A stretch of DNA of 64,000 nucleotides from an uncultured Bacteroidales bacterium (GTDB lineage Bacteria > Bacteroidota > Bacteroidia > Bacteroidales > Bacteroidaceae): NCBI GenBank assembly GCA_902776455.1, contig CACYQI010000037.1, positions 1 to 64,000 on the forward strand, given 5' to 3'. A model generated the notes under the pieces. That model worked only from the letters and a program-made list of their open reading frames with translations. It had not been told where the DNA came from and did no database searches. Position 1 is the first letter of the stretch, and every line of letters starts with the position of its first letter. Shown piece by piece: positions 2,482-57,400 of this stretch. Both the position numbers and the translations under genes were made by a program.

Positions 2482-5235
2482 ATGAAGAGACTCTTTCTTT
2501 CGCTGGCAGCGCTGGCCGTTTGCCTTTGCAGCCGAGCCGAGTTCGTCTTTCAAGAGGGCCTTATTGCCCACATCAAGCCGAAGGGCTGGCTGCTGGAGTT
2601 CCTCGAGCGGCAGAAGACGGGGCTGACGGGACATCCCGACGCGCTCTCCTACCCCTACAACACATGCCTCTGGGCGGGCGAGATACCGCGCAACGGCAAC
2701 TACGGGCAGGACTGGTGGCGATACGAACAGACCGCCTACTACACCGACGGACTGCTCCGACTGGGCTACCTCCTCGACGACGAGGAACTCATCCAGAAGG
2801 GCGAGCAAGGCGTGAAGTACACGTTGAACCATCCGCAGTCGAACGGACGGCTCGGCTCGTCGGTCATCAGCAGTCTGTGGCCGCAAGCCGTCTTCTGGCG
2901 AGCCATGAAGGCCTATGCCGACGCTCACGACACTCCGGCTACCGTCAAGGCTGCCCTGCGCAGAAACTACATCTCGATGTCCAATGCCGACCTCGCTGGC
3001 GGGCGTCGGCACATCCTCAACCTCGAGGGCCTGCTCTGGCTCTACGGCGTGACGGGCACGAAATCGCTGCTGACGAAAGCCGAGACTGCCTACAAGACAG
3101 GCGGGTTCGAGTTCGATGCCGCCGAAGCTGGCAGCCCCAGCTTCACCCATCTGCACGGTGTCACCTACTGCGAGATGCTCAAAGTGCCCCTGCTCCTCTA
3201 TGCCTATACGGGCAACAAGGAGTACCTGCGCATCGCCATGAATGCGGAGCGGAAGCTGGAACGCGACCACCTTCTGCCCGACGGGGTGCCTACCAGTGCG
3301 GAATACACTTTGGGACGCGACATCGACATAGCCCACGAGACGTGCGACATAACGGACTACACCTGGTCGCTCGGCTACTTCCTTACCGCCACGGGCGAGG
3401 CAGAATGGGCCGACCGCATAGAGCGAGCCATCTTCAATGCCGCTCCGGGAGCCGTCACGGCCAACTTCGACGCCGTGCAGTACTTCTCGTCGGTCAACCA
3501 AGTCATCTGCACGGGCACGTCGGACAACAACGTCTTCAAGCGCGGCTCGACGTGGATGGCCTACCGCCCGACGCACGAGACGGAGTGCTGCGCCGGAAAC
3601 ATGCACCGCATGATGCCCAACTTCGCTTCGCGTCTCTGGATGCGCGGCACGGAGAACGATGCCATCGTAGCCGCCATGTATGCGCCCAGCGAGGTTGACT
3701 TCAAGGTGGGCGAAACCGACTGCCGCATCGCGGAGGAAACCTTCTACCCCTTCAGCGGCGTCATCACCTTCCGCTTCTCCCTGCCCTCGACGACGCACTT
3801 CCCCTTCTCCTTCCGCATACCGGGATGGTGCAAAAGAAGCAACGTCTCCATAAATGGAGAGGAGGTGCAAGGGGCGTGGAGCATGGAGCAAGAGAATACC
3901 AATGGAACCGAACAATCCTCTTCCCCCTTGCCCCCTGCCCCCTGCCCCTCTTTCTATACTTTAGAGCGCGACTGGAACGACGGCGACGTGGTGACACTCT
4001 CCCTCGACATGGAGCCGAGGGTCGTGGAGGCAGCCGACCGACAGGGAAAGTATGTGGAGTGCGGACCGCTACTCATGGCTTACCCCGTGCCAACCACCGT
4101 CACCGAGGACACAAACACCTATAGCAACATGAACGGCAAGGTGCCGGGTGACGGCTTCAAGTGCTGGAGCATGAAGCCCAGCGGCCCGTGGAACTACGCC
4201 ATCAACACCGATGCCGAGACGCTGACTCTCAACACCGACGAGCAGAAGCTGCGTACAGCCTATCCCTTCGACCTCGATGGCACACCGATTTCCGTGGATT
4301 TGCGCGTCCGCTCCATCACATGGGACTTGGAGAAGGACCGCTACAACCCCATCCTTCCGGCATCGGAATATATTGACCCCACCGGCACGGCACGAACCCT
4401 CAGGCTCGTCCCATACGGCGCGACCAAGTTGCGCGTCACCGTCTTCCCCGATGCCCTGCGGAAGCAAGAGAAGACGCTTACCGACTCGCTCCTCATCAAT
4501 CCCGACTTCGAACTTACGTCTGCCACGCAAGTCAACCGCGGCGGAACGGAGAAGAAGACGTACCTCCCCTACGGATGGAGCGTGCAGGGCAACCTTAGCG
4601 GCAACAGCTACGGCATCAACAAAGATGCCATCAACCACTACGGCGAGAACGTCTGCTGGTATCGCACCCTACCCTTCCCGCTCGACTTCCAGCTCTATCA
4701 GACCATTCCCGCCTCGAAGCTCAAGCCCGGAACCTACCGCGTCCGCTGCCTGCTCTGGTGCCAGACAGGCCAGTTCGGCACGTGCCGACTCTTTGCAGGC
4801 AACAACGTGCAGTACTACGGAAGCGAAAGCGACTACGGCGATAACATGCCGGCAGACGAGACAGCCACTTTTGCAGGACACAAAGGCACCAGCGGCGCAA
4901 GCTTCATCATGCAGGAGATGGAAGTGACAACGGACGTCGAAGCAGGCGAAAGCCTTTCCCTCGGCATCCGCACCAGCCGCCTCAAACCCGACGGCACACA
5001 AGCCGGCAGCAGCGAGCCGACAGGATGGTTCAAGGTGGACCACTTCCGCATAGAAAGGGTAGAACCCGAAGACCCCATCGGCATCAACAGCCCCAAAGAC
5101 CTTAAAGACCCTAAAGACCTTAAAGACCCTAAAGTCCTCGGCAACTCCTGGTACGACCTCAGCGGCCGCAAGTGGTCAAACGGTCAACGCCTCATGGTCA
5201 ACGGTCAAACCGGCAGGAAAGTGCTAAGGCCGTGA
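2482..5235 (+). CDS. Exported GH127-type (DUF1680) beta-L-arabinofuranosidase-like enzyme
   Basis: 917 residues, with a signal peptide (1-19). The first ~630 residues follow the DUF1680/GH127 pattern, whose characterised members release beta-L-arabinofuranose using a zinc-bound cysteine. The E286-T-C288 and E368-C369-C370 motifs fit the family's Glu-Cys and Cys-Cys zinc/nucleophile sites. Residues about 670-863 form a separate jelly-roll-like module (INPDFEL..., YGWSVQGNLSGNSYG, FKVDHFRIERV) that recurs twice in the GH115 protein at 43997. About 28 residues near 463-490 are encoded by a GC-rich repeat and interrupt the accessory beta domain. The tail has WYDLSGRK but lacks the usual GIYI, so the sorting signal may be degenerate. 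The next gene starts 47 bp on, suggesting one operon. The exact sugar is inferred. Confidence 0.82.
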   Translation: MKRLFLSLAALAVCLCSRAEFVFQEGLIAHIKPKGWLLEFLERQKTGLTGHPDALSYPYNTCLWAGEIPRNGNYGQDWWRYEQTAYYTDGLLRLGYLLDDEELIQKGEQGVKYTLNHPQSNGRLGSSVISSLWPQAVFWRAMKAYADAHDTPATVKAALRRNYISMSNADLAGGRRHILNLEGLLWLYGVTGTKSLLTKAETAYKTGGFEFDAAEAGSPSFTHLHGVTYCEMLKVPLLLYAYTGNKEYLRIAMNAERKLERDHLLPDGVPTSAEYTLGRDIDIAHETCDITDYTWSLGYFLTATGEAEWADRIERAIFNAAPGAVTANFDAVQYFSSVNQVICTGTSDNNVFKRGSTWMAYRPTHETECCAGNMHRMMPNFASRLWMRGTENDAIVAAMYAPSEVDFKVGETDCRIAEETFYPFSGVITFRFSLPSTTHFPFSFRIPGWCKRSNVSINGEEVQGAWSMEQENTNGTEQSSSPLPPAPCPSFYTLERDWNDGDVVTLSLDMEPRVVEAADRQGKYVECGPLLMAYPVPTTVTEDTNTYSNMNGKVPGDGFKCWSMKPSGPWNYAINTDAETLTLNTDEQKLRTAYPFDLDGTPISVDLRVRSITWDLEKDRYNPILPASEYIDPTGTARTLRLVPYGATKLRVTVFPDALRKQEKTLTDSLLINPDFELTSATQVNRGGTEKKTYLPYGWSVQGNLSGNSYGINKDAINHYGENVCWYRTLPFPLDFQLYQTIPASKLKPGTYRVRCLLWCQTGQFGTCRLFAGNNVQYYGSESDYGDNMPADETATFAGHKGTSGASFIMQEMEVTTDVEAGESLSLGIRTSRLKPDGTQAGSSEPTGWFKVDHFRIERVEPEDPIGINSPKDLKDPKDLKDPKVLGNSWYDLSGRKWSNGQRLMVNGQTGRKVLRP
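3866..3955. repeat. GC-rich 'LAPCP' repeat element inside the GH127-type gene
   Basis: In-frame insert with a left arm of ggagca(a)g-type words, a core gagaatacca...caatcctctt, and a right arm of repeated ccccttgcccc words. The same core occurs in the acyltransferase gene near 13617-13643. Translation gives MEQENTNGTEQSSSPLPPAPCP-type residues with no place in the enzyme fold. Confidence 0.75.
5092..5138. repeat. 9-bp-period array (KDLKDP) inside the GH127-type gene
   Basis: Five 9-bp units of the aaagacctt/aaagaccct type, in frame, encoding (K-D-L/P)n directly before the C-terminal WYDLSGRK tail. The same repeat type appears at about seven other gene ends in this window. Confidence 0.8.
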
Positions 5236-9780: not shown

Positions 9781-9864
9781 TTTCATTACCCCGTTGACGT
9801 ATTCCTGTCTTCCCTGTCGGACAGCAATAGTTGGAAAACAAACGATTACCTTCCCTCTCGCTGA

Positions 9865-9952
9865 GGCAGTAGTTGTAGCCCCGGAAGGCAGTAGTTGTAG
9901 CCCCGGAAGGCAGTAGTTACAGGGCTGCAAGGCAGTAGTCGTGGGGCGGCAA
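9865..9952. repeat. Tandem array, four 22-bp units
   Basis: Four 22-bp units each begin ggcagtagt (9865, 9887, 9909, 9931); the first two are identical and the last two diverge in the second half. The array sits in the 435-bp gap between the terminator and the GH16 gene, followed by a cccctttagggt REP-like fragment near 9968-10000. No coding sequence is seen there. Confidence 0.85.
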
Positions 9953-10120
9953 GGCAGAGAACCTCCATCCCCTTTAGGGTAGAGGCCGTTTTAGGGGAAA
10001 GCAATAAAAAGAAATGCACGCTGACTAAAATTCTAATGACCGATTGGGGTTAAAAGACTCACGACATGGGTTCTGCTGCACTTTTATCCTAAATTAGGAA
10101 GATGTATGAAGTTTTTTTCG

Positions 10121-12755: not shown

Positions 12756-13931
12756 ATGCGGCGCATCCCTGAACTCGACTATCTGAAGGGCGTGCTCATA
12801 CTGCTCGTCATCACGTTCCACTTGGTCTGGTTCGAACAGTTGCACCCCGACATCAAGCAGGTGGTGTATTGTTTCCACATGCCCGGCTTCCTCTTCATCG
12901 CGGGCTACCTGATGAACGTGGGCAAAGCTCCACGCGACTTCTTGCGGACGCTCCTGTGGCTGGCGGTGCCGTACCTCTTCATGGAGAGCGGATACATCGT
13001 GATGGCTTCGCTTCTGCCCATCAACGACCACATCGACTGCCTCACCTCATCGGTCTTCTTCGACCGCCTTCTGCTCCATCCCCTCGGCCCGCCCTGGTTC
13101 CTCCACGCCTTGATGCTGTGCGAAGCCGCCTATTACATTATTATATATATAATAGGGGAAAGGAGCAAGGAGCAGGAGAAGACATTCTGCCCTGACATTT
13201 CTCTTGCCCCTTGCCCCACGCCCCATGCCCCTATCTGCCGAGTCATATTGACTGGCATCGCCTATTACATTCTGGCCGACGGCTTGGGCATCCTGTCCTT
13301 TTCCTCAGCCCTTTACTTCCTTGCGGGAGCAGCCCTTCGCCTGAGCGGCACAGACTTCGTGACGTTCTTCCGGCCGACGAAGCTCTCCGTCGTAGTCTTC
13401 TTCCTGCTTGCCTGCCTTTCGTACAAACCAACCCAAGCAAGCATGAACGGAGCCTTGATTGCCTATTTCGCCATTTCCTCCCTGCTGGCCTGGCCTCTCC
13501 TCAATCTTCCCAAGGAGCAAGGGGCAAGGAGCAAGGGGCAAGAGAAAGAGGAGCAAGGGGCAAGGAGCAAGGGGCAAGAGAAAGAGGAGCAAGGGGCAAG
13601 GAGCAAGGGGCAAGAGAATACCAACTACCAGAGCAATCCTCTTGCCTCTTGCCCCTTGCCCCTTGCCCCTAAAAAGAGAGGGCCTCTCCAGGCCCTCCTC
13701 TTCTTGGGCCGCAACAGCCTGATGCTCTACGTCTTCTCCCCTATCTTCACGGTTCTTTGCAAGCGACTTGTGCCTCTTCTCCAGTTTGACACGACGGGAC
13801 TCCTCTTCCTCGTTATCTCTCTGACAATCTGCGTCGCAGGCAGCCTCGCCATAGCTTGGGCGATGGATCGCACAGGCATCGCGCGCTTCTTCTTCGGCAG
13901 GAAAGCCATTATGGGCGTTCCGAGAGAATGA
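12756..13931 (+). CDS. Acyltransferase family 3 membrane protein
   Basis: 391 residues with about ten hydrophobic segments. The start RIPELDYLKGVLILLVITFHL, and FHMPGFLFIAGYL nearby, are typical of acyltransferase-3 proteins, which O-acylate sugars of surface polymers in the inner membrane; the His in ITFHL fits the conserved catalytic region. Two loops are enlarged by repeat-coded sequence: residues about 134-160 (GERSKEQEK...LAPCPTPHAP) and about 254-308, where three 12-residue units EQGARSKGQEKE precede a proline/cysteine-rich part. Both fall between predicted membrane segments, so the protein may tolerate them. It follows the preceding gene by 6 bp. The acyl group and acceptor are unknown. 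Confidence 0.75.
   Translation: MRRIPELDYLKGVLILLVITFHLVWFEQLHPDIKQVVYCFHMPGFLFIAGYLMNVGKAPRDFLRTLLWLAVPYLFMESGYIVMASLLPINDHIDCLTSSVFFDRLLLHPLGPPWFLHALMLCEAAYYIIIYIIGERSKEQEKTFCPDISLAPCPTPHAPICRVILTGIAYYILADGLGILSFSSALYFLAGAALRLSGTDFVTFFRPTKLSVVVFFLLACLSYKPTQASMNGALIAYFAISSLLAWPLLNLPKEQGARSKGQEKEEQGARSKGQEKEEQGARSKGQENTNYQSNPLASCPLPLAPKKRGPLQALLFLGRNSLMLYVFSPIFTVLCKRLVPLLQFDTTGLLFLVISLTICVAGSLAIAWAMDRTGIARFFFGRKAIMGVPRE
13156..13234. repeat. 'LAPCP' repeat element, first copy in the acyltransferase gene
   Basis: Left arm aggagcaaggagcagg and right arm cttgccccttgcccc flank about 25 bp of unrelated sequence. The copy is in frame and codes for a hydrophilic loop. Confidence 0.7.
13515..13672. 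repeat. 'LAPCP' repeat element, second copy with three 36-bp units
   Basis: Three exact 36-bp units (13515, 13551, 13587) encode EQGARSKGQEKE. They are followed by the core gagaatacca...caatcctctt and a right arm of ccttgcccc words. The arms are inverted complements, so the whole could form a long hairpin in DNA or mRNA. It is in frame with the gene. Confidence 0.85.
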
Positions 13932-14396
13932 TTATTGCCGCGGAAAAGATTTTTCTCCCGCTTCCCTTCCGGTAATCCTACACCTACAAAAAACCATCGG
14001 CAAAGGCTGAAACAGCCTGGCTGACGGCAAGGGCTGACTGACTCCTTGTGCCATGTTGATTGCTCCTTCATGTAAGAGCAATTGCTCCTACATGTAGAAG
14101 CGATTGCTCCTTCATGTAGGAGCAATGAAGGCAACGTGTAGATGCAGACGCGACTTCGTGATGCAGGAAGGAACATCGGCTGCTCTATCGATTGCCGCTC
14201 CCTGAGCCGAGGGGCCATTTGCCGGTTCGCGTTGACTGACAACTTGTCCTCCTTTGTCCATCTTTGTCGCTCTTTGTCCTCAAAATGGCCAGCTTCCGCG
14301 TTTGGCACGCTTGTTGTCTATCTTGTTAGTGAACAGCGGACGAAGACGAAAGAAAGCGGACGATGTTTAAAAAGAAATGTTTAACTAAAATATAAT
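13932..14396. other. Intergenic region upstream of the Hsp20 gene
   Basis: About 465 bp without a recognisable gene. It holds a 22-bp-period array (14039-14126) and a ctttgtc-rich run near 14245-14280. No convincing TAnnTTTG promoter was found near the Hsp20 start; a tatcttgt word at 14319 is only a weak candidate. Confidence 0.55.
14039..14126. repeat. 22-bp-period array of palindromic units
   Basis: The word tgctcc recurs at 14061, 14083 and 14105, exactly 22 bp apart, with a degenerate copy at 14039. Each unit has the form attgctcctncatgtaggagcaat or close, so units are themselves palindromic. Confidence 0.8.
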
Positions 14397-16897: not shown

Positions 16898-19800
16898 ATG
16901 AAAAGACGATTACTTCTGTTCGTGTTCGCCGCTATAGCGGGGACACTGACGGCCCTGGCCGACGACTACATCAAAGTGAGCAACCGAGATATGCCGTTCA
17001 ACGAGTCGTGGAGCAAGAAATGTAGTTACTTCAATGACTCCGAGAGTGATGGCACCATCAGCTGGGACGCTTCGACCCGCACGCTGACAATGCATAACTT
17101 CGAGATAGACAGGTTTAACGACCTAAGTTGGGGGAATAGCCAACTGACCTGCCTCGAGATTAATTCGAGACAAGATGTTACCATCGAACTGAAAGGCAGA
17201 TCCTATCTTGGCGTCGGCAGAGGGAAAGTGCTTGCTCTGCACGGCAACACGACCTTCACGGGCGACGGCAAACTGTCCTTCTGGAGCAGAGACGGCGATA
17301 AATTCAACATCGAGCTTATGGAGGAGAACTTGAATGTAACCGTGGACGGCCCTACATTAGAATTCTGGTATGGTAGCAAAGGCATCCGCGGCAAGAACAA
17401 CACAGGTTCCTTCCACTTGGAGAGAGGCTTAGTGAAAGGCAGCGTGGGCTATCTGTTCCAGGGAATGAAAAGCGTGACCTTCGACTACGGCTATGGCGTG
17501 CAGCAGCCTCATGGCGCCGAGTTCAGCCCGCAACAACATATCATGGTTGACCCTGACGGCAACGATGTCAAAGGCAGTGCTGTTGTACTCGGAGAAATCA
17601 AGTACTACGGCTTCAGCATCTGCGGCGTTGAGATTACCGAGAACAACTGCGACCTCATCGATAAAATAGTCTTCGTAAAGAGTGGCGATGTTCATTATGA
17701 CCCAAGCTCAAACACGCTTTTCTTGGACAATGCCACCATCGTCAACAACAGCAATGTTCCAACCATCGAGAACGCAAGCAACGATGGCCTTGACATTAAA
17801 CTCAAAGAAAACAATATATTCAAGTTCGAAGGAGAGAAAGAGCGTTGGGCAATGAGTCTGAAAGAAAACACCCAAATTAAGGGTAAATTCAATGACGAAG
17901 ACTTTCTGCATGTCATAGATGCAGACTATGCCGGCATCCATGTGGGTGCAAACAAGTGTCTAAGACTAGATGGTGTAACGCTCAACATTCCCTATTTGAA
18001 GGGCGGCAACATCAATTCTGAACTCCACATAGACTGGGGGGTGACTATAAACGCAACTGGCAACGACAAACTCGGCACTTTGAGTTGGCTCAGAATGACA
18101 AACAGCAACTATTACAGTTTAGATGGTTTCATCCCATACCAAGCCGCTGTAGAGTCCACAGCGAGTCAGCCACGCTTCATTTGGAATCGCGATGACAACA
18201 GAGCCTCCGGCGTTTATGAGAACCGCAATGAGTTTGCAAAGGGGCCTGTGCATATTGAAACAAACAATGATTGGGATTGCGTAACAATATGCGGCCAACG
18301 GGTGATTGCACTCAACAGGGATAATATCGTCAACCAATACATCAAGAGCGGCCGTATCTACTACGACGACGAAGGCCTTCACCTCTGCAATGTAGATTTG
18401 GACGACGAAGGTCAAGATGATCCAACCTTGGAATTTAAATGGAGCAAAACCATTTTCCTTGAAGGCACCAATAAAATTAAGTGCAATAATATCGAAGCCA
18501 TCAAGGCACTCAGAGACTTAACAATACAAAACGACGCGTCCGGTGCTTCGCTGATCATCGAAGGCAGAGACGCAAGGGTGAACACATCGGGCACGCTGAA
18601 ATTGCTCGATACCAAAGTTACCGCTCCGGAAATCTCTGCGTCGGAACTCGATGTATATGGTTCCTGGCTCAACGTCACCCGAAAGCTGGAAGCCGACAAG
18701 GTTAGCCTGGACACGGAAACGGAAATGGTTGTCTCCACGCCTGAAGCCCCTGCTTACTACGACAGCGAAGAGCAACAGATAGTGGCTCCCAAAGGCCCTG
18801 TAAGCATCGTGCCAAAGAGTAGCGTCACTGAATATCCTATCTTCTTCCTTGGAGAGCAAGTGACCTCCGCCAATGCTTCCTGCATAATGAACAAGCACAT
18901 CACGTCGGGATCATTGTCTGTCAAGAAGACGAGCGATGCGTACAACATCGTCATGGACAACTTAGTCGTCTCGTACGATGGGGAGTACCCTATGTTCAAT
19001 TTCACCTCTACTGACCGCATGAACATCGACGTCAAAGACTGGAACGTATTCAATTTAATGAAAGCCGGTCCCCAAGCACATTTCATTACAGGATACTCGG
19101 AGAGCGTCAACATATATGCCGACACCGAGAGGGAGAACTTCCTTGGAGTAATGGGAAGCACCACGACCAATGCCGGTGCCATACTGGTGGGAAACAACAG
19201 CTCGCTCAAGTTTAGCAACCGCTATGTCAACTCGGGTGGCAGCTTCAATGCCGTCTTGCCGCGCATCTATGGCATGGGCCGCACATCAACCCTCGTCATT
19301 CAGGACCCATACGTCACACTGAACGGAAACAGCCAAGGGACGGTGAACGACGTCAACGTTGAACTGCCAACGGGCAGGGCTGAACTCGACCGCTCAAACC
19401 ACCTATTCATCGACAACGGCGGCATCTACCTGGACTACGTAATCTACACCGGACAGGTGAAGTTCGTGGGCAAGGGCGAGAGCTACGTCCCTGTTGACGA
19501 TATCAGGCTTTTCCCACCTATGCTGATGTTCGAAAGGAAGGGGCAGACGGGACAGCTCAAGGCTGATGTCTATCCCGAAGATGCTACGAACAGGAACGTT
19601 GTCTGGGTAAGCAACGACGAGACTGTGGCTAAAGTTGATCAAAAAGGTAAAGTCACGGCCGTAGGAAAAGGCCAGGCAATAATCTTTGCCTATTCTGAAG
19701 ATACTGTCTTTGATATAGAGAATCCCAGCACTTACACCAACGCCTGCGTTGTCCACGTGATCATCCCCGATCCTTACGACATTACGCTCAGCGAGACGGA

Positions 19801-21742
19801 TGTCCTCATCGACCGCGAGAGCGTCGGCGGCTTCTATCTTACGGCTAACCTGACGCCAGACAATGCCGAGACGGACTACTTCGAATGGGAGAGCAGCGAC
19901 GAGACGCTCGTGACCGTGCTACGCAATAGCGGCAAGACGGCTCTCGTCCGCCGCGTGGGCGACGAAGGACAGGCTACCATCACAGTCAAGACGGCCAACG
20001 GACTCTCCGCCAGCTGCAACGTGACGGTCCACTACCCCATCACCCCGATAACCGTGCAGTTCGCACAACGCACTTATACCCTCACAGAGGTGGGCGAACA
20101 GCTTAAACTCGAACCCATTGTGACACCCGAGAACTGCGAGAAGCTGAGCTTCGTCTGGAACTGCTACGGCGAAGCTATCAGCCTGAGCAACGACGGTACG
20201 GTAACGGCTCTGCGCAACGGTTCGGCCGTCGTGGAATGCTGGGCTTGCTACGACGGACAGCAGTGGGCACCGGGCGAGGTGCGCATCAACGTCGATATTC
20301 CTCCCACGCCTGTCATCGCCACCGGCCTGACGCTCTCTCCCGCCAGCTCACCCATCTTCTACTCGCTGGGCGAGAGGCTCATTCTTACACCTGTCTTTAC
20401 GCCCGAAGACGTGACGAGCGAGGAACTGACGTGGAAGTCGAGCAACGAGAACGTCGCTACTGTCGATGAGAACGGCTTCGTCACTATCGTGGGCTGGGGC
20501 GACTGCGACATCACCGCCACAACCACCGACGGCTCGAACCTCAAGGCAAGCCACACCATCAACGCCATCGACCCGTCAACGCTGCCGGAACCTGTCTATG
20601 CCACGGGCATCAAGCTTACCGACAACGAAGTGACCCTGATGAGAGGCGAGGAGGCACGTATTGGCGTCACCATCGAACCTGCCAACTACACGGAGAGCGT
20701 CATGGTGGAACTCCTTGAGGGCGACCTCAGCATCGCTGAAGCTCGCGAGGAGTGGGACTGGAACACCAACCAGACGAGCATCTACATCCGTAGCGACATG
20801 ATGTCGGAGCAGTTCGGCGACGTGAAGTATGTAGTACGTCCCAACGCTGTGGATTGGGAGAAGCTTAACGCCATGGGCATCTGGGAAGAACCGAAGGACA
20901 CGATTACCATCCACGTCCTCGCTCCCATCATCTTCGCCGAGGCATCGCCCGAGGACATCAATATCACCTATCACGTCACGGACATCAACGACAAGACTTG
21001 CGAGGTTTACACCCAGAGCAGACCCGGCATGCCGTTTGATCCGCTTGATCCCGACCTCGTTCCGGCCGTCAGCACTACCGCTACGGGCAAGCTCACCGTG
21101 CCTGCAAGAGCCAACGGCTACTGGGTGACGAACGTCATGCCGTGCGCCTTCAACCATTGCACCGGCCTGACCGACATCGAGTTCTCCGAGGGCATCGAGA
21201 GCATCGGCGACTATGCCTGCTACAGCGCCCTCTTCAGTCTGGAGCGCGTCACGCTGCCTTCCACCATCAAGGAACTGGGCTACAGCTGCTTCTCCGCCAA
21301 CCCGAGCGACTATGCTACAAGCGAAGACCCCTCCGGCCGCAACTTCATCCGCGAGGTGAACATCAAGAGCTTCACGCCCCCGACGGGTCAGAACGGCAAC
21401 GACATCTCGATGACCGGCGCCTTCTGGAGCGTGGCTGCCGACGCAGTCCTCTTCGTGCCGACCGGCGCTCTGGCAAACTACAACGTACAGCCCTGGACGG
21501 AGTGGTTCTCGCGCATCGAGGAGAAAGCATTCTTCGGGACGCAAGCTCGCAGGCAAGCCAGCGAAGGCCGGTCTCTACATCAATGGAGGCAAGAAGATCG
21601 TAGTGAAATAACCCCTCTCGCAAGGAGGGCCTCAGAGTGTCTCGCAGGGCATCGTTTTACGCTCCACGGAGAAAAGCCCGATGCTCCACGGAGAAAAGCC
21701 TCACACTCCACGGAGCATAAGCCCACACTCCACGGAGCGTAA
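16898..21742 (+). CDS. Giant exported Big_2/LRR_5 surface protein, first tandem copy
   Basis: 1614 residues with a signal peptide (about 1-22, cleavage ALA-DD). Residues 23-860 contain repeated beta-rich segments (NTTFTGDGKL, YYGFSICGVEITENN) of no recognised family, possibly a beta-helix. About 864-1345 hold five Ig-like segments of Big_2 type (for example WVSNDETVAKVDQKGKVTAVG and WKSSNENVATVDENGFVTIVG). About 1396-1540 resemble BspA-like LRR_5 repeats (CTGLTDIEFSEGIESIGDYAC, LERVTLPSTIKELGYSCFSA). The frame then runs past the expected end through repeat DNA; the tail GLYINGGKKIVVK is present only in the +1 frame at 21534-21611. It begins 42 bp after the regulator gene. Adhesion or substrate binding is inferred from such domains elsewhere. 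Confidence 0.82.
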   Translation: MKRRLLLFVFAAIAGTLTALADDYIKVSNRDMPFNESWSKKCSYFNDSESDGTISWDASTRTLTMHNFEIDRFNDLSWGNSQLTCLEINSRQDVTIELKGRSYLGVGRGKVLALHGNTTFTGDGKLSFWSRDGDKFNIELMEENLNVTVDGPTLEFWYGSKGIRGKNNTGSFHLERGLVKGSVGYLFQGMKSVTFDYGYGVQQPHGAEFSPQQHIMVDPDGNDVKGSAVVLGEIKYYGFSICGVEITENNCDLIDKIVFVKSGDVHYDPSSNTLFLDNATIVNNSNVPTIENASNDGLDIKLKENNIFKFEGEKERWAMSLKENTQIKGKFNDEDFLHVIDADYAGIHVGANKCLRLDGVTLNIPYLKGGNINSELHIDWGVTINATGNDKLGTLSWLRMTNSNYYSLDGFIPYQAAVESTASQPRFIWNRDDNRASGVYENRNEFAKGPVHIETNNDWDCVTICGQRVIALNRDNIVNQYIKSGRIYYDDEGLHLCNVDLDDEGQDDPTLEFKWSKTIFLEGTNKIKCNNIEAIKALRDLTIQNDASGASLIIEGRDARVNTSGTLKLLDTKVTAPEISASELDVYGSWLNVTRKLEADKVSLDTETEMVVSTPEAPAYYDSEEQQIVAPKGPVSIVPKSSVTEYPIFFLGEQVTSANASCIMNKHITSGSLSVKKTSDAYNIVMDNLVVSYDGEYPMFNFTSTDRMNIDVKDWNVFNLMKAGPQAHFITGYSESVNIYADTERENFLGVMGSTTTNAGAILVGNNSSLKFSNRYVNSGGSFNAVLPRIYGMGRTSTLVIQDPYVTLNGNSQGTVNDVNVELPTGRAELDRSNHLFIDNGGIYLDYVIYTGQVKFVGKGESYVPVDDIRLFPPMLMFERKGQTGQLKADVYPEDATNRNVVWVSNDETVAKVDQKGKVTAVGKGQAIIFAYSEDTVFDIENPSTYTNACVVHVIIPDPYDITLSETDVLIDRESVGGFYLTANLTPDNAETDYFEWESSDETLVTVLRNSGKTALVRRVGDEGQATITVKTANGLSASCNVTVHYPITPITVQFAQRTYTLTEVGEQLKLEPIVTPENCEKLSFVWNCYGEAISLSNDGTVTALRNGSAVVECWACYDGQQWAPGEVRINVDIPPTPVIATGLTLSPASSPIFYSLGERLILTPVFTPEDVTSEELTWKSSNENVATVDENGFVTIVGWGDCDITATTTDGSNLKASHTINAIDPSTLPEPVYATGIKLTDNEVTLMRGEEARIGVTIEPANYTESVMVELLEGDLSIAEAREEWDWNTNQTSIYIRSDMMSEQFGDVKYVVRPNAVDWEKLNAMGIWEEPKDTITIHVLAPIIFAEASPEDINITYHVTDINDKTCEVYTQSRPGMPFDPLDPDLVPAVSTTATGKLTVPARANGYWVTNVMPCAFNHCTGLTDIEFSEGIESIGDYACYSALFSLERVTLPSTIKELGYSCFSANPSDYATSEDPSGRNFIREVNIKSFTPPTGQNGNDISMTGAFWSVAADAVLFVPTGALANYNVQPWTEWFSRIEEKAFFGTQARRQASEGRSLHQWRQEDRSEITPLARRASECLAGHRFTLHGEKPDAPRRKASHSTEHKPTLHGA
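21534..21611 (+). other. Out-of-frame C-terminal tail of the first giant protein
   Basis: In the +1 frame relative to the gene, these bases read SGRKLAGKPAKAGLYINGG then KKIVVK and a stop, the same tail as in the other exported proteins. The annotated frame instead reads GTQARRQASEGRSLHQWRQ. A net one-base change near 21520-21534 would restore it. Confidence 0.8.
21661..21741. repeat. 22-bp-period array, four 'ctccacggag' units
   Basis: The word ctccacggag recurs at 21662, 21684, 21706 and 21728. It is part of the readthrough coding sequence of the first giant gene (HGEKPDAPRRKASHSTEHKP). The same family occurs at 30358, 36709 and, inverted, 48190. The rest of the gap to 21960 holds a ggatttgcaatcc palindrome (near 21858-21875) and no clear promoter. 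Confidence 0.85.
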
Positions 21743-21959: not shown

Positions 21960-24900
21960 ATGAAAAAACGTTTATTGTTTTTCGTGTTCGCCGCTATAGC
22001 GGGGACACTGACGGCCCTGGCCGACGATTACATTTGGGTAAGCGGCAAAGAGATGCCGTTCAACAGTTCGTGGTCCCATGACTACACCTACTTCAAAGAC
22101 AGCAGCAGAGGCACGGTCAGCTGGAACGCTTCGACCCACACGCTGACGCTCGACAACTTCAAGACTTGGAGAGGCTGGGAACTTAACCTCCACACCTCAA
22201 GAGACTGCATCAACATCGAATCCAAGCAAGACATCACCATCGAGGTGAAGGGCAATTGCGAATTATCAACACTGGAAGGACAGACATTGGCGCTGCACGG
22301 CAACACGACCTTCACGGGCGACGGCAAGCTGCTACTCTCGGACTATGATGACGCAAAACCCTGCATCAACTTGAAGGAGAAGAACCTGACCGTCACCCTG
22401 AACGGACCGTCCCTAAAGCTCGACAGCAAAAACGACGGTATCCGAGGAGTGAGCAACACCGGCACATTCCACATGAAGGCCGGCTATGTGGAAGGACAGG
22501 TCAAAGGGAAAATAGTGAAAGACCTCAGCTCGGTCATATTTAACTACGGCATGGGCGTGAAGAAAAACCACGGCGCTATGTTCAATCTATCAAGGCATTG
22601 CATGGTGGACAAGGACGGCAACGAGATTACCGGAAAGGGAAGTATCGACTTCGGCCCAATCGAGTACTACGGCTTCGCCATCAACGGCACCGATATTACC
22701 GAGAACAACTACGACCTCATCAGTACATTCAACAGCGTCCAGAGCGGCCAAGTCAAGTATGATCCCATTGATAATGAACTTTCTCTGTATGAAGTTACCT
22801 TGTGCAACCCCAGCATCTATCCCACCATCGACAACCACAGCAATAAGGGGCTGACAATAGGATTCAGGGGGACATGCCGTTTCACGTTTGAAGGCGACAG
22901 GGAGCGCGAAGCGATGCGCCTGCGGGAGAATACAACTCTACTCTGCAACGCCTGGTCGAATACCCACACGTCGCTCAACATCGACGAAAGCTTCGCAGGC
23001 ATCTATGTGAGACCGAACAAAAAGCTGACCGTCAAGAGTCATACCGATGACGGTTTCTTCCTTAACGTGCCCTGGATAGAAGGCGGCAACCGAAACTCCG
23101 AATTGATCCTTTCTGATTACATCAGGATAAATGCTTCCGGCAGCAGCGAGGGCACAGTGCGCTCTATCAACGTCGTCAACCAGTCCCATTACCCCGAAGT
23201 AGCCGTGGGGTCCAAGGGGGCCATTTATGACGAACCCCGCTTCATCTGGAACGCTGCCCGTGTGCCCGGCGTGTACGAAAGCCAGGAGCAGTTGGCTACA
23301 GGCAGCGTGACGCTCAGCACGGAGTACGGCTTGGAATGGTACGACATCTATATATGCGACCATCAGGTAAACGAGCTCAACATGAATCGTATCGTCAACG
23401 AGTACTTCGTGAGTGGTTATTGCTATTACAGACCCGGCAACAACACCTTGACAATGGTTGGTGCCAAAATTGAATACAATGGCATAAGCAGCAACCCATT
23501 GATACGATGGACCTCGAATTCATTCAGCGAATACAAAATCCGTGTTACTGATGACACCAGTATCTATAATAAGAATGGAAACAAGACCATCTATAGCCCG
23601 AAGAATCTAGAAATTCTTGGTGTTGGCTCTTTTGACATATCTGGCGACCTCGATGTGAAAGGGGAACTGGCTGTACGACGCTTCATAAGCTTATATGCAG
23701 CAGATAACGTCACCGTTTCATCAATCTACATAGATAACAGCCAATTTTATGCTGACCAGATGAAGAACTATCAGGACGGCAGCTCCTCTGTTCCGGCAAC
23801 ACTCAATGAAGTTATCGTACAAAATGATATTGATGATCTCTCCTCTACCTCTTTTTCCTATTATGACAGCGAGACCAAGAAATTAGTATGTAATGGTCAT
23901 GTTCGTGCCATACCATCGTTTGGCCTAACTCAAATTGAGGGCGTGAAGTTCTGCGGTCAGGAATTGTATGATGGTTACACTACAGCAAACAAATCCATCA
24001 AGCGCGGGTACTTATTGCCAGGTATCTACGAAGAGGATGGCAACTTAGCAGTTGACATTTATATGGATTATGGCTTCCAGTGCGACAATGACTCAAGATA
24101 CCCCGTGTTTGAAATCAATAACCCAAAGATTAAGAAGGTTAGGCTATACACAGGAATTGGTGATATTGAATTCTGGTGTAGGCAGGGATCTCCATTTATA
24201 ACAAGCAACGTGGAGGAAACAGTTATTCTAACCAATTTTGGTGTTGAGTCAAGCCTCACCGTCCATGGCGAAGGCGGTCCCAGTGCCGACGGCAGACCCG
24301 GTGGTGGTGAAATCATAGTGCCCGCTAACGGCAAACTCATCATCGGAGACAAAGATGATGAGAATACACAAGAGGTTTACCTGCCTCGCATCGTAGGCCA
24401 AGGCACTTCGTCGAAGCTCATCATCAACGACCCCTATCTCACCGTGGGCGCCAATGAATCAGGCTCTGTGGCAAACATCAGCGTTGAACTGCCAACGGGC
24501 AGGGCTGAACTCGACTGTAGGGACGACCTCGTCCGCATCGGCAACGACGGCATCTACCTCGAAGACCAGTTCTACACCGGACAGGTTAAGTTCGTGAAGA
24601 AAGGCGAAGGCTACATCCCTGTTGACGAAGTCCACGTTGACATACACGAACTGAAATTCGACGCGAAGGGGCAGACGGCACAGCTCAGGGCTACAGTCCT
24701 GCCCGATAACGCTACGAACAAGAAAGTTTTCTGGAGAAGCGCTGACGAGAAAGTGGCGAAGGTCGATCAGAATGGCAAAGTAACGGTCGTAGGAAAAGGC
24801 TTGACAATGGTTGCTGCCATATCTGAGGAAATGGAAAACCCCAACTCTTTCTTAAGCGCTTGCCTCGTCACCGTGGAATTCCCCAAACCTACTGCTGTTA

Positions 24901-26810
24901 CGCTCAGCGAGACGGATGTCCTCATCGACCGCGAGAGCGTCGGCGGCTTCTATCTTACGGCTAACCTGACGCCCAGCAATGCCGAGACGGAATATACTTG
25001 GGAGAGCAGCGACGAGACGCTCGTTCAAGTCATCCCAGGCAGCGGAAAGTCGGCTCTCGTCCGCCGCGTAGGCGACGAAGGACAGGCTACCATCACGGTC
25101 AAGACAGCCAACGGACTCTCCGCCAGCTGCAACGTGACGGTTCACTACCCCATCACGCCTCAGACCGTAGAGTTCGCAAAGCGCACCTACACCCTTACAG
25201 AAGTAGGCGAACAGCTTAAACTTGAACCCATTGTGACACCCGAGAACTGCGAGAAGCTGAGCTTCACCTGGAGCCTCCATGGCGGAGCCATCAGCCTGAC
25301 CAGCGACGGCACCGTCACGGCTCTGCGCAACGGTTCGGCTGTCGTGGAATGCTGGGCTTGCTACGACGGACAGCAGTGGGCACCGGGCGAAGTACGCATC
25401 AACGTCGAGATACCGGCAACGCCTGTCATCGCAACCGGTCTGAAGCTTTCTCCCTCCAGCTCATCGCCCTTCTACTCGCTGGGCGAGAGGCTCATTATGA
25501 CACCTGACTTTACGCCCGAGGACGTGACGAACCAGCAACTGGTATGGTATTCAACCAACGAGAGCGTCGCTACTGTCGATGAGAACGGCTTCGTCACTAT
25601 CGTGGGCTGGGGCGACTGTGAGATTACCGCCACAACCACCGACGGCTCGCGCATCACAGCAAGGCAATCCATCACAGCCATCGACCCGTCAACACTGCCA
25701 GAACCTGTCTATGCCACGGGCATAAGCATTACAGAAAAAGAAGTGACCCTGATGAGAGGCGAAGAGGCACGCATTGGCGTCACCATCGAACCTGCCAACT
25801 ACACGGAGAACGTTATGATGGAACCCCTGGAGGGCGACATCAGCATTGCCGAAGTACGCGAAGAGTGGGACTGGAGCACCAACCAGACCAGCATCTACAT
25901 CCGTAGCCAAGAATGGTCTGAGCAGTTCGGCGACATGAAGTGGGTGATAAGGCCCAGCGCCGTGGATTGGGAGAAACTCAACGCGATGGGCATCTGGGAA
26001 GAGCCGAGGGACACGATTACCATCCACGTCCTCGCTCCCATCATCTTCGCCGAGGCATCGCCCGAAGACATCAACATCACCTATCACGTCACGGACATCA
26101 ACGACAAGACCTGCGAGGTATATCCCATCTACAACGAGTGGGCCTCCGAACCTGACCCGGACCTCGCCGGCGCACCCCTCGTCACTCCTGCTGTCGATGT
26201 CACCGCAACGGGCAAGCTCACCGTGCCTGCAAGGGCCAACGGCTACTGGGTGACGGCGGTCAAGGACCGTGCCTTCCAGAAGTGTAGCGGCCTGACTGAC
26301 ATCGAGTTCTCCGAGGGCATCGAGACCATCGGCGACGAAGCCTGCTACCGCCGCCTCTTCAGCCTGGAGCGCGTCACGCTGCCTTCCACCATCAAGGAAC
26401 TGGGCTACTACTGCTTCTCGGCACACACGAGCGACTACGTGACAAGCGGTCACCCCTCCGGCCGCAACTTCATCCGCGAGGTCAACATCAAGAGCTTCAC
26501 GCCCCCGACGGGTCAGAACGGCAACGACATCTCGATGACGGGCGCCTTCCAGAGCGTGGCTTCCGACGCAGTCCTCTTCGTGCCGACCGGCGCTCTGGCA
26601 AACTACAACGTACAGCCCTGGACGGAGTGGTTCTCGCGCATCGAGGAGAAAGCATTCTTCGGCAGGCAAGCCCACGAAGGCCGGTCTCTACATCAATGGA
26701 GGCAAGAAGATTGTTATTTCGAAACCTTAGGGACTTTAGGGACCTTAAGGACCTTAAGGACTTTAGGGACTCTAAGGACTTTAAGGACCTTAAAGACCTT
26801 TAAGGATTAG
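21960..26810 (+). CDS. Giant exported Big_2/LRR_5 surface protein, second tandem copy
   Basis: 1616 residues, a paralog of the 16898 gene along its whole length. The signal peptide DNA is nearly identical; the 23-860 region is diverged; the Ig-like and LRR_5 regions are again nearly identical (YATGISITEKEVTLMRGEE, CSGLTDIEFSEGIETIGDEAC). The pattern suggests a tandem duplication with later divergence of the middle, or conversion of the ends. As in the first copy, the C-terminal tail AGLYINGGKKIV lies in the +1 frame (26659-26730), and the annotated frame continues into a 9-bp repeat that codes for (R/G-T-L)n. A terminator follows. Exposed surface role is inferred. Confidence 0.82.
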   Translation: MKKRLLFFVFAAIAGTLTALADDYIWVSGKEMPFNSSWSHDYTYFKDSSRGTVSWNASTHTLTLDNFKTWRGWELNLHTSRDCINIESKQDITIEVKGNCELSTLEGQTLALHGNTTFTGDGKLLLSDYDDAKPCINLKEKNLTVTLNGPSLKLDSKNDGIRGVSNTGTFHMKAGYVEGQVKGKIVKDLSSVIFNYGMGVKKNHGAMFNLSRHCMVDKDGNEITGKGSIDFGPIEYYGFAINGTDITENNYDLISTFNSVQSGQVKYDPIDNELSLYEVTLCNPSIYPTIDNHSNKGLTIGFRGTCRFTFEGDREREAMRLRENTTLLCNAWSNTHTSLNIDESFAGIYVRPNKKLTVKSHTDDGFFLNVPWIEGGNRNSELILSDYIRINASGSSEGTVRSINVVNQSHYPEVAVGSKGAIYDEPRFIWNAARVPGVYESQEQLATGSVTLSTEYGLEWYDIYICDHQVNELNMNRIVNEYFVSGYCYYRPGNNTLTMVGAKIEYNGISSNPLIRWTSNSFSEYKIRVTDDTSIYNKNGNKTIYSPKNLEILGVGSFDISGDLDVKGELAVRRFISLYAADNVTVSSIYIDNSQFYADQMKNYQDGSSSVPATLNEVIVQNDIDDLSSTSFSYYDSETKKLVCNGHVRAIPSFGLTQIEGVKFCGQELYDGYTTANKSIKRGYLLPGIYEEDGNLAVDIYMDYGFQCDNDSRYPVFEINNPKIKKVRLYTGIGDIEFWCRQGSPFITSNVEETVILTNFGVESSLTVHGEGGPSADGRPGGGEIIVPANGKLIIGDKDDENTQEVYLPRIVGQGTSSKLIINDPYLTVGANESGSVANISVELPTGRAELDCRDDLVRIGNDGIYLEDQFYTGQVKFVKKGEGYIPVDEVHVDIHELKFDAKGQTAQLRATVLPDNATNKKVFWRSADEKVAKVDQNGKVTVVGKGLTMVAAISEEMENPNSFLSACLVTVEFPKPTAVTLSETDVLIDRESVGGFYLTANLTPSNAETEYTWESSDETLVQVIPGSGKSALVRRVGDEGQATITVKTANGLSASCNVTVHYPITPQTVEFAKRTYTLTEVGEQLKLEPIVTPENCEKLSFTWSLHGGAISLTSDGTVTALRNGSAVVECWACYDGQQWAPGEVRINVEIPATPVIATGLKLSPSSSSPFYSLGERLIMTPDFTPEDVTNQQLVWYSTNESVATVDENGFVTIVGWGDCEITATTTDGSRITARQSITAIDPSTLPEPVYATGISITEKEVTLMRGEEARIGVTIEPANYTENVMMEPLEGDISIAEVREEWDWSTNQTSIYIRSQEWSEQFGDMKWVIRPSAVDWEKLNAMGIWEEPRDTITIHVLAPIIFAEASPEDINITYHVTDINDKTCEVYPIYNEWASEPDPDLAGAPLVTPAVDVTATGKLTVPARANGYWVTAVKDRAFQKCSGLTDIEFSEGIETIGDEACYRRLFSLERVTLPSTIKELGYYCFSAHTSDYVTSGHPSGRNFIREVNIKSFTPPTGQNGNDISMTGAFQSVASDAVLFVPTGALANYNVQPWTEWFSRIEEKAFFGRQAHEGRSLHQWRQEDCYFETLGTLGTLRTLRTLGTLRTLRTLKTFKD
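26659..26730 (+). other. Out-of-frame C-terminal tail of the second giant protein
   Basis: The +1 frame reads SAGKPTKAGLYINGGKKIVI then SKP and a stop. The phase offset is the same as in the first copy even though the two differ by a 12-base indel just upstream. Confidence 0.8.
26725..26808. repeat. 9-bp-period array at the end of the second giant gene
   Basis: About nine units of aaggacctt/agggacttt type cover the last codons of the long frame, here read in a different phase as Thr-Leu-(Gly/Arg/Lys). Confidence 0.85.
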
Positions 26811-29260: not shown

Positions 29261-29338
29261 GTAAAAAGATTAAAGATTAAAGATTAAAGATTAAAGTTTT
29301 TTTCCTTAACTGGCGATTTTTCCAGTTCAAGGCTCGGA

Positions 29339-33727: not shown

Positions 33728-34144
33728 ATGGAGATAACAATTGAGAATACCGAAGGCCTTGCAGCAGCCGCGCGGCAGTTTGTCGAGGCAATGGGCGAGC
33801 GACGCATCTTTGCTTTCTATGGCAAAATGGGTGCCGGCAAGACCACCTTCATCAAGGCCATTTGCGAAGCGCTGGGTGTGGAGGATGTCGTAACATCCCC
33901 CACCTTTGCCATTGTCAACGAGTATGGAGCGGACGGAGCATTCGATAGGGTTTATCACTTCGACTTCTACCGCATCAAGAACTTGCGGGAGGCTTACGAC
34001 ATCGGCTGCGAAGAATACTTCTACAGCGGCTGCCCTTGCTTCATCGAGTGGCCAGAGCTCGTAGAGGAACTCCTGCCCGAGAACACAGTCAACGTTAGCA
34101 TCGAAGTGCGCGACGACGAGTCACGCCTTGTCAAAATAGCTTAA
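33728..34144 (+). CDS. tsaE: tRNA threonylcarbamoyladenosine biosynthesis ATPase TsaE
   Basis: 138 residues, the usual size. The Walker A motif FYGKMGAGKTTFIKAI (about 30-45) and the segments VTSPTFAIVNEY, VYHFDFYRI and CFIEWPELVEELLPE are diagnostic. TsaE acts with TsaB and TsaD to place t6A on ANN-decoding tRNAs in the cytoplasm. It begins 3 bp after the endonuclease gene, an odd partner for a housekeeping gene, so translation may be coupled. A 9-bp repeat array begins at its stop codon. Confidence 0.95.
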   Translation: MEITIENTEGLAAAARQFVEAMGERRIFAFYGKMGAGKTTFIKAICEALGVEDVVTSPTFAIVNEYGADGAFDRVYHFDFYRIKNLREAYDIGCEEYFYSGCPCFIEWPELVEELLPENTVNVSIEVRDDESRLVKIA

Positions 34145-55501: not shown

Positions 55502-57400
55502 TTATAACGCTGTTCTTGCTGCTGCCATTACTCTGAGGAAGTTGCCGCCCATGATGAGGCGGATGTCCTCCTCCGAGAACTGGCGACGCAGGAGGTGGCG
55601 CGTGAAGTTGATTATCTCTGAGGCATCGGCGAGGCCGGGCACACCGCCGTCGCCATCGAAGTCGGTGCCGAGGCCGACATGCTCTACGCCCATCACCTTT
55701 GCCGCATGGCAGAGGTGCTCCACGGCATCGAGGACGGTGGCTTGGCCGTCAGTGCGAAGGAAGCCGCCATAGACGGTTGTCTGCGCCACACCGCCAGCCT
55801 TGGCGAGAGCACGCATCTGGTCGTCGGTCAGGTTGCGGGGATGGTCGCACAAAGCCCTTGCTGAGCTGTGGCTGCACACGATGGGAACTTTGCTCAGCTC
55901 CAGAGCATCAAAAAAGCTCTTCTCTGAGGCATGGCTCATATCCACCAGGATGCCCAGGCGGTTCATCTCTGCTACTACTTCCTGTCCGAAGGCACTCAGG
56001 CCACCGTGCTCTGCGTTGCCACGGGCCGAGTCGCAGATGTCGTTGTCGCCATTGTGACAGAGTGTCATGTAGATGATGCCGCGTTGCTTGAAGTATTCGA
56101 GCAGGCTGAGGTCCTTGCCGATGGCATAGCCGTTCTCGATGCCTCGCAGGATTGCCTTCTTGCCTTGTGCCTTGAGTTGCAGGATGTCGTCCTTCGTCTC
56201 GGCAAAGCCTACACGGTCGTTGTTCGCCCGCACCATCACTTCCATCTGCGTAAGCAGACGGTCGGCCATTTCCTTAGCAGCCTTGTAGCCTTCGGGCGAG
56301 CGTTCTCCTTGCGGCAGATAGGCCACCATGACGGACGCATCGAGGCGTCCCTCGGTCATCTTCGGCAGGTTGACGAGCACGCGGTCGGAGCGTGTGCCGA
56401 ACATGGCGATGTTCTCCTTGCTGTCGTCCGTGAAGAACATCGGCGTGTCGCAATGGCTGTCTAATATAATAGATGTATCGTGGATGTGCTTAGCCTGAGC
56501 GAAGGTGCGTGCCTCGCTGATGAGCCAGCGGAACACGGCCATCATGCTCTCGTCGCCATTCAGGATGAAGCATTCGGGATGCCACTGCACACCGAGCAAT
56601 GCCTTGTGCTCTGTGCTCTCCACAGCCTCGATGATGCCGTCGGGACTCTTTGCCGATACCTTCAGATGCGGCCCTGGCTCGCTTACTGCTTGGTGGTGGA
56701 AGGAGTTGACAGGAAGCGTCTGCCTGCCTCCGAAGATGCTGTGCAGCAGGCTTTCCTCCTCGATGCAGACGGTATGGGAAGCAAAATGCCGGGGCATATC
56801 CTGCGAATGCTTAATGAGAGGGCAAAGGGCAGCACATTTCTCTTGCTCCTTGCCCCTTACATCTTGCCCCTCTATAGCAGCACATTTTTCTTGCTCCTTG
56901 CCCCTTGCCCCTTGCCCCTCTATAGCAGCACATTTCTCTTGCTCCTTGCTCCTTGCACCTTGCCCCTCTATAGCAGCACATTTCTCTTGCTCCTTGCCCC
57001 TTGCCCCTTGCCCCTCATATTGAGCATAGATGTCCTGAAAGACTTTGCCTCCCAGGGCAGCTGCCATCACCTGTATGCCGCGACAGATGCCCAGCATGGG
57101 AATCTGTCTGTGGAAGGCTTCGCGGGCAAGGAAAAGCTCCTGTTCGTCGCGCTCCGGACAAACGCTATGCAGCTGAGGCAGAGGCTCCTCGCCGAGAAGC
57201 AGCGGATTGATGTCGCCGCCTCCGGAGAAGATGATGCCATCGAGCTTATCGAGCAATGAAATGAGAGCCTCCTTGTCGTGATGAGGAGGGATGACAACAG
57301 GCGTGCCACCAGCCTTGAGCACGGAGAGGTAATAGCCCTGAGCCAGCTCGCAGCCCTTGTCGCCGAAGTTGCCAGTAATGCCGATAATACTATTTGTCAT
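55502..57400 (-). CDS. Fusion of class I glutamine amidotransferase-like (C26) and M19 dipeptidase
   Basis: 632 residues, apparently cytoplasmic as no signal is seen. The N-terminal half (1-310) is a gamma-glutamyl hydrolase-type (PF07722/C26) domain: IIFSGGGDINP, nucleophile C106 in LGICRGIQVMAAALGG and H/E in GVQWHPECF. The C-terminal half (about 315-632) is a membrane-dipeptidase-type M19 domain: DSHCDTPMFF, GIENGYAIG, LVDMSHASEKSF, CSHSSARALCDHPRN and GLGTDFDGDGG. Together they could take apart gamma-glutamyl peptides such as glutathione-like compounds; inferred. Four 16-residue repeats (EGQGARGKEQEKCAAI) are inserted at about 129-192 inside the C26 domain, coded by a 48-bp tandem repeat. 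Confidence 0.88.
   Translation of the reverse strand: MTNSIIGITGNFGDKGCELAQGYYLSVLKAGGTPVVIPPHHDKEALISLLDKLDGIIFSGGGDINPLLLGEEPLPQLHSVCPERDEQELFLAREAFHRQIPMLGICRGIQVMAAALGGKVFQDIYAQYEGQGARGKEQEKCAAIEGQGARSKEQEKCAAIEGQGARGKEQEKCAAIEGQDVRGKEQEKCAALCPLIKHSQDMPRHFASHTVCIEEESLLHSIFGGRQTLPVNSFHHQAVSEPGPHLKVSAKSPDGIIEAVESTEHKALLGVQWHPECFILNGDESMMAVFRWLISEARTFAQAKHIHDTSIILDSHCDTPMFFTDDSKENIAMFGTRSDRVLVNLPKMTEGRLDASVMVAYLPQGERSPEGYKAAKEMADRLLTQMEVMVRANNDRVGFAETKDDILQLKAQGKKAILRGIENGYAIGKDLSLLEYFKQRGIIYMTLCHNGDNDICDSARGNAEHGGLSAFGQEVVAEMNRLGILVDMSHASEKSFFDALELSKVPIVCSHSSARALCDHPRNLTDDQMRALAKAGGVAQTTVYGGFLRTDGQATVLDAVEHLCHAAKVMGVEHVGLGTDFDGDGGVPGLADASEIINFTRHLLRRQFSEEDIRLIMGGNFLRVMAAARTAL
56824..57015. 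repeat. 48-bp tandem array in the C26-M19 gene
   Basis: Four 48-bp units (boundaries at 56872, 56920 and 56968 on the plus strand) each combine ctatagcagcacattt with a cttgctccttgcccc arm. The arm is the 'LAPCP' element of the acyltransferase and GH127-type genes. All units are in frame. Confidence 0.9.

Follow-up and report, generated by a model that had tools for sequence, protein, structure and literature searches.

The window, meaning the whole 64,000-nucleotide stretch analysed here, carries copies of a small palindromic repeat that is dispersed through the genome and lies in frame inside conserved genes. Judged from sequence, this repeat is likely a translated, non-autonomous palindromic element that works like the Rickettsia palindromic elements (RPE), outside the Rickettsiales and with an arm peptide that does not depend on the reading frame. 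The earlier note had described a GC-rich inverted repeat carried in frame by unrelated genes and had read it as a small mobile or amplifying element tolerated, or selected, as a protein loop; its observation is confirmed and its interpretation is supported.

Architecture and genomic abundance of the element

The usual element is 84 nt long and consists of three 28-nt thirds, namely four GGRGCAA heptamers, a core, and four TTGCYCC heptamers. The consensus core is close to GAGAATACCAAC.GCCAGAGCAATCCTC, and some copies carry A/T-rich ends such as TTTTA...TAAAA. Terminal inverted repeats, a MITE feature, are present, and, as in RPE, the palindromes are dispersed both inside and between genes. The three window elements and the copy in the FprA gene of L022 each fold better as RNA than all 200 of 200 dinucleotide shuffles. 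The cores vary widely from locus to locus, while a similar asymmetric 28-nt core is found again at unrelated loci. Core similarity places 41 copies in orientation A and five in orientation B (n = 46); assignment by a GAGAA or GAGGA start was abandoned, as it overcounts B, GAGGA also arising through an N-to-D change in A copies. At L014, L020, L023, and L132, the element is nested within the arms of another palindrome of the CTCCCC...GGGGAG type, and some of these composites also lie in frame inside genes.

Throughout the 3.39-Mb assembly (94 contigs; G000 below, with other G numbers for related genomes and L numbers for collected loci or stretches), the 16-nt arm GGAGCAAGGGGCAAGG gives 189 + 195 = 384 matches at up to two mismatches, against 0 + 1 for the reversed-pattern control. 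An 854-kb sample of G000, comprising 790 kb of stretches and the window, contains 40 clusters, where the earlier note had named four places; 16 of these fall within the 572 kb of C1–C4, which were included nearly whole, the stretches outside C1–C4 having been picked for having hits. The element is therefore dispersed and not confined to the window.

Copies and host genes in the window

Elements are found at all four places first proposed, one in the GH127-type gene, two in the acyltransferase gene, and one in the C26-M19 gene, with the hosts assigned by Pfam, and every insert is open in frame (Table 1). The GH127 host is confirmed through its middle and catalytic domains, and the Peptidase_C26 match of the fusion gene is split into two stretches. 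The copies are not identical, where the earlier note had spoken of the same composite element: compared with the consensus core, the closest 28 nt agree at 14/28 positions in the GH127 gene, 17/28 at 13155, and 26/28 at 13514. The 3′ part of the second acyltransferase copy (13580–13672) folds with a z-score of −8.70, and its 36-bp unit is recovered by TRF at 13513–13618 (2.9 copies, 100% match). The 36- and 48-bp units described in the earlier note are thus real according to TRF, but they represent local tandem amplifications of an element that elsewhere is usually 84 nt long. These tandem units, together with the copy number, support the term amplifying.

Table 1. Element copies and their host genes in the window
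Feature	Position	Strand	Basis
Palindromic heptamer element in the GH127-type gene, insert region VQGAWSMEQENTNGTEQSSSPLPPAPCPS	3862..3952	+	Sequence reading, orthologue alignment, RNA fold z −3.95
Host gene, GH127-type beta-L-arabinofuranosidase family, 917 aa	2482..5235	+	ORF; Pfam PF20736 + PF07944
Acyltransferase-gene element copy 1, diverged core	13154..13228	+	Sequence reading; RNA fold z −4.80
Acyltransferase-gene element copy 2, F arm amplified (36-bp unit x2.9), then core and R arm	13511..13672	+	
28-nt core of copy 2, GAGAATACC...CAATCCTC	13614..13641	+	
Host gene, Acyl_transf_3 membrane acyltransferase, 391 aa	12756..13931	+	ORF, Pfam
Arm-only array, 48-bp unit x3.9, in frame in the C26-M19 gene	56829..57016	−	TRF
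Host gene, Peptidase_C26 fused to Peptidase_M19, 632 aa	55502..57400	−	ORF, Pfam

Several further repeats accompany these copies. An Rfam search over the window returns one family match, away from the elements: Acido-Lenti-1 at 48753–48798 (37.9 bits, threshold 37). The match may represent a repeat rather than an sRNA gene, as the repeat that it overlies recurs near 27058, 30712, 36967, and 52791. Arrays of 9 bp (TTAAGGACC type) lie at 5091–5138, 26724–26806, 34140–34264, 54406–54473, and 57540–57590, and one of them encodes the tail region of the GH127 protein, KDLKDPKDLKD. Tandem arrays of 22 bp, several with internal dyad symmetry, occupy 9864–9957, 14059–14126, 21662–21737, 36708–36809, and 48200–48250, and in the 854-kb sample 22 ranks second among TRF periods by frequency. 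Additionally, two neighbouring ORFs, at 16898–21742 (1614 codons) and 21960–26810 (1616 codons), are paralogues that share stretches of 72–88% identity.

Empty sites in orthologous genes

Among 12 aligned GH127 loci, the insert is present in G000 and G020 only, the other ten, all of the same genus, being without it; the earlier note had named two findings that would speak against it, these residues in orthologues of distant genera and absence of the element elsewhere in the genome, and neither was observed. Acyltransferase site 1 is likewise filled in G000 and G020 only, and site 2 in G000 only, being absent from G020 and the other orthologues (11 usable aligned loci in each case; the rows L172 and L175 were left out, being an antisense ORF). 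At site 2, G013 (L169) carries a different in-frame repeat-derived insert, and acyltransferase orthologues without these inserts have open frames of 310–337 aa (n = 7). Empty or differently filled orthologues also occur for the MiaB-type, carbamoyltransferase, RNase R-type, MutL, and PriA hosts. In EngB, a 58-residue insert exactly separates residues 68 and 69 of B. subtilis YsxC with no residue missing, and that of a carboxyspermidine dehydrogenase lies between residues 275 and 278 of 8deb.

Hosts named from Pfam domains include ArgS, EngB, RecG, PriA, MutL, RNase R, BipA, and MnmA/TrmU types, and many are conserved housekeeping enzymes. Insertion in frame into unrelated conserved genes whose orthologues are empty, a hallmark of RPE, is thus observed here, and the element is missing from orthologues at many sites. 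Mobility, as first suggested, is inferred from these empty sites and from patchy sharing between genomes. The proposed protein loop is consistent with frame, hydropathy, and alignment position; an AlphaFold model of a carboxynorspermidine dehydrogenase type protein (three sequences) reached a mean pLDDT of 42.6 and was discarded as uninformative on the loop.

Reading frame, stop codons, and hydropathy

The clusters come from three sources: G000, as the sample and a further 33 loci selected by hits; G020, as 43 loci; and the 71 named stretches. Once identical contexts were dropped, 204 were left, of which nine lie at sequence ends and 195 are classifiable. Flanks were judged coding or noncoding with a hexamer score for which 342 long ORFs of the sample served as training set. 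By this measure, 96 clusters are open in frame with coding flanks, four have coding flanks on the same strand but are not open, 48 are noncoding, and 47 are one-sided or have flanks on opposite strands. Where both flanks code on one strand, the ratio of open to not open is 35:1 in G000, 27:0 in G020, and 34:3 in the named stretches, in each set far from 1/3 by a binomial test. As a control, random 84-bp windows are in frame in 60% of cases, and an artificial 85-bp deletion, which shifts the frame, leaves 1.1% open. In-frame clusters number 16 of 40 in the 854-kb sample and 6 of 16 in C1–C4. Random insertion with survival of the in-frame third alone would, as estimated from the 60% figure, leave about 1/3 in frame, and by this comparison in-frame copies seem well tolerated. 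The in-gene copies are in frame and strongly frame-biased.

Two of the four cases that are not open, L096 and L121, appear by eye to lie where one gene ends and another begins; the elements at L121:201–284 and L096:7328–7404 seem to supply the C-terminal tail of the first gene shortly before the start of the second. Among the 24 arm-only in-frame clusters, at least two (the second site of L168, and L096) were rejected as element copies, being chance matches to LPPAPRPL-type sequence of empty acyltransferase loops. Searching for good arms yielded most of the in-gene copies, so decayed copies are under-sampled in these counts.

The arm–core junction falls in phase 0, 1, or 2 in 55, 13, and 1 copies, respectively (69 scorable of 72 two-arm in-gene copies; chi-square p 7e-16), and in 40, 12, and 1 after grouping of orthologous sites (53 scorable of 56). 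In the frames that are used, the core peptide has GRAVY values of −2.01, −1.63, and −1.06, as against +0.57 (one copy), +1.42, and +2.17 (no copies) in the nearly unused frames. The 84-nt consensus is stop-free in all six frames, which is equalled by 5 of 2000 shuffles. As 7 and 3 have no common factor, three heptamers visit all frames, and each arm encodes one cyclic heptapeptide in any frame, GARGKEQ type on entering the element and LAPCPLP type on leaving it. A conserved encoded peptide, as in RPE, is present. Together, the frame, stop, and hydropathy results point to translation and to filtering at the protein level.

The FprA loop and its several kinds of insert

The flavodiiron protein FprA, matched in 52 of 61 genomes, provides a loop at which several inserts can be compared. 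In 24 displayed loci, this element occupies the loop in two (G000 and G013), other in-frame inserts occupy it in three (G020, G027, and G077), and the loop is shorter in the remaining 19. The FprA loop (L278–L281) thus holds the element in one species and other in-frame, repeat-derived inserts in related ones. The G020 and G077 inserts fold as strong hairpins (z −5.91 and −8.62), while the short loops of G031 and G001, used as folding controls, give z −0.10 and 1.11. The G027 insert shows no significant hairpin (z 0.34) and was dropped as a palindrome, although it resembles a two-armed heptamer-like array by eye. Comparison by eye of filled and empty FprA loops, whose flanks have diverged, reveals no clear target-site duplication.

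These inserts raise the possibility, which we put forward tentatively and as somewhat doubtful, that loops of housekeeping enzymes in this clade are shared slots filled repeatedly and independently, in frame, by unrelated and mostly palindromic repeat families, and that filled slots then cross species by very short tracts. This reading is rated lower because one of the four FprA insert kinds, that of G027, is not a significant hairpin. If it held, the source of new loops would be an ongoing process at the DNA level, with a hydropathy filter, rather than point mutation.

Near-identity of copies shared between species

Copies shared between species are nearly unchanged. At fourfold sites of 14 pairs, 5 of 193 differ within elements as against 412 of 1270 in flanks; in the core alone (11 pairs), 7 of 323 nt differ (2.2%) as against about 12% in flanks within 120 nt, and since the pairs were partly found through their arms, the core figure is the fairer one. 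For two pairs, the second member came from a protein search: the GH127 pair shows one change in 75 nt versus 16% in flanks, and the acyltransferase site 1 pair shows 8 in 72 (11%) versus 19%. In three of 19 pairs (L263/L114, the C37 C26-M19 gene/L154, and tandem C3), the element is no better or less conserved than its flanks, or the unit number varies, the tandem C3 pairs having an element only slightly better conserved. Differences within elements show no third-position excess (10 of 417 third positions; 2.6% over all positions).

The longest run with at most one mismatch overlies the element in 10 of the 14 shared pairs, the exceptions being acyltransferase site 1, ArgS in G000/G020, C6/L138, and L125/L128. 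Identity extends into flanks to a variable degree, in one pair for up to 53 nt exactly on one side, and some genes contain long identical runs elsewhere, up to 174 nt. Recombination between species therefore exists. Simple vertical inheritance of a neutral loop does not predict the near-unchanged state of shared copies, which may reflect short-tract transfer or constraint at the nucleotide level.

A selected nucleotide-level function, such as an RNA hairpin or a DNA site, would keep shared copies near-unchanged, and the fourfold-site and core comparisons above are in its favour. We nevertheless consider it unlikely, given the wide variation of cores between loci, the variable run of identity past the element, the ability of the same loop to hold unrelated inserts, and the partial ascertainment of pairs through the arms themselves.

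Distribution among related genomes

At up to one mismatch, the arm matches in 10 of 61 related genomes, all within the same genus (10 of 37), and in none of the 24 genomes of other families. Matches number 186 in G000, 108 in G020, 102 in G013, 56 in G027, 39 in G035, and 23 in G005, with one to three in each of four others. A 19-nt arm at up to two mismatches is found in nine of 294 other genomes of the order, with one to six matches each. Across contigs of 84,980 species, the exact hairpin pattern retrieves 71 stretches, nearly all from Prevotellaceae, Prevotella, Bacteroidaceae, or Bacteroidales MAGs, and several have samples named for the rumen or forestomach; from such relatives, the window would belong to a bacterium close to rumen Prevotella-like species. 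Two sources fall outside these groups, a Saprospiraceae MAG (L101) and 'Bacteroidetes bacterium SAP1' (L115, L123), and this core is missing from the arrays of both. Viral carriage was ruled against, since viral contigs yield no stretch with the exact hairpin pattern and blastn no phage match to the element; among plasmids, a single record (Agrobacterium) has a 32-nt match.

Origin and movement

The preferred reading is that a family of small non-autonomous palindromic repeats has spread, both between and into genes, in this genome and in some relatives of the same genus, the in-gene copies being translated as hydrophilic, probably flexible surface loops. Selection would filter insertion length and core frame, as the arm peptide is the same in any frame, and frame-shifting or hydrophobic-core insertions would be lost. 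The copying step may most plausibly be hairpin copying coupled to replication, or the work of a trans-acting enzyme, and short-tract recombination would occasionally spread copies between species.

Plain heptanucleotide slippage, in which the polymerase grows the arms and the palindrome is incidental, fits the local tandem amplification in the window and the dominance of period 7 among the sample's arrays (272 TRF rows, or 270 without overlaps, versus 43 of period 8). It is quite improbable, however, as the asymmetric core recurs at unrelated loci and core dispersal needs copying, and as the same core ends also lie between other heptamers of the GAGGTTA type. Specifically, the ends GAGAATAC...CAATCCTC are flanked by GAGGTTA/TAACCCC-type arms at C1:72864, on the minus strand of C2, and at L032:1575–1670, as if arms were exchangeable. 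The period-7 rows comprise at least 40 different units, at about 318 per Mb in the 854-kb sample and 0–149 per Mb in six same-genus genomes (samples of 39–100 kb). Given these shared core ends and many units, the process is probably wider than one element family. Among the 270 non-overlapping arrays, those in frame in genes number 17 of 59 for stop-free heptamers, 10 of 129 for heptamers open on one strand, and 2 of 82 for closed ones. Window examples include 29265–29296, 48359–48389, 49006–49036, 53899–53993 (a heptamer-armed hairpin by eye), and 61333–61365.

Mobilisation in trans of a REP/MITE by a RAYT (Y1) transposase is very improbable. Palindromy, dispersal, and high copy number accord with it, as do the full-length or nearly full-length Y1_Tnp genes of the element-rich G013, G027, and G035, the transposase search having covered the Y1 type. 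Against it, Y1_Tnp matches are absent from the element-rich G005 and G020 and are weak and partial in G000, while G022 and G032 have long Y1_Tnp matches and no arm match. Moreover, nine of ten Y1 loci (up to 1.5 kb on each side) lack an arm match, the tenth, L089, having a single loose match of 14 nt at a distance of about 0.7 kb, and the inspected Y1 genes (L088, L089, L090) are flanked by other short palindromes, of the GCCCTGAAAGGGC type in G013 and G027 and the GGGGCGATGCCCC type in G035. The link was rejected, the repeat neither flanking RAYT genes nor tracking their presence.

Translational bypass or splicing out of the insert, after the manner of the palindromic bypassed elements described for Magnusiomyces mitochondria in PMC6649704, would suit stable hairpins inside genes but is hardly credible, as it predicts no frame, stop, or hydropathy constraint and all three are seen.

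Significance and comparison with known systems

As a high-copy Bacteroidales counterpart of RPE, with 56 grouped two-arm in-gene sites and empty orthologues, the translated repeat favoured here offers a natural test of loop insertion tolerance and bears on the origin of new protein segments. The design of the heptamer arm is neat, since its peptide stays the same in any frame, and one FprA loop with several insert kinds makes the insertion mechanism testable across related strains. Among the papers listed in literature searches on Bacteroidetes, Prevotella, or rumen bacteria, mostly from outside the subscription journals, none describes such elements, which is weak evidence of novelty.

Rickettsia palindromic elements were reportedly the subject of Ogata 2000 and 2002. 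Elements similar to RPE also occur in Wolbachia. RPE are palindromes lying in frame in unrelated genes, with a conserved encoded peptide and several families (PMC10969869), and the present element is alike in both placement and peptide conservation. It differs in length (84 nt, versus about 150 bp for RPE; PMC10969869), in its arms of tandem heptamers, and in its host, whose named relatives are Prevotellaceae/Bacteroidales MAGs rather than Rickettsia, so that it works like RPE without being one; the title of the 2002 paper, in the reference list of PMC10969869, names protein-coding palindromes as a unique Rickettsia feature. RPE also lose repeat identity over time (PMC6649704), whereas the shared copies here are nearly unchanged.

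Other systems share single features. The heptameric repeats of Xanthomonas and Nostoc likewise consist of tandem 7-nt units, sometimes inverted, but they are described as intergenic (PMC4692102), whereas 96 of 195 clusters here are in frame in genes, and copies with two arms around a core distinguish the present element. In Nematomorpha mitochondria, inverted repeats also lie in coding genes with both arms translated, but those arms encode conserved residues of the gene (PMC6649704), whereas here residues are added at sites empty in orthologues. PARCEL similarly combines palindromic DNA with a repeated peptide, but as a 25-residue tandem amphipathic motif in ORFs of unassigned function (PMC2996958), in contrast to insertions into conserved enzymes. 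Finally, the BrickBuilt MITE of Porphyromonas gingivalis, also from the Bacteroidales, places a tandem repeat within an inverted-repeat element, but with a 23-nt unit and always between genes (PMC4596501), unlike the element described here.
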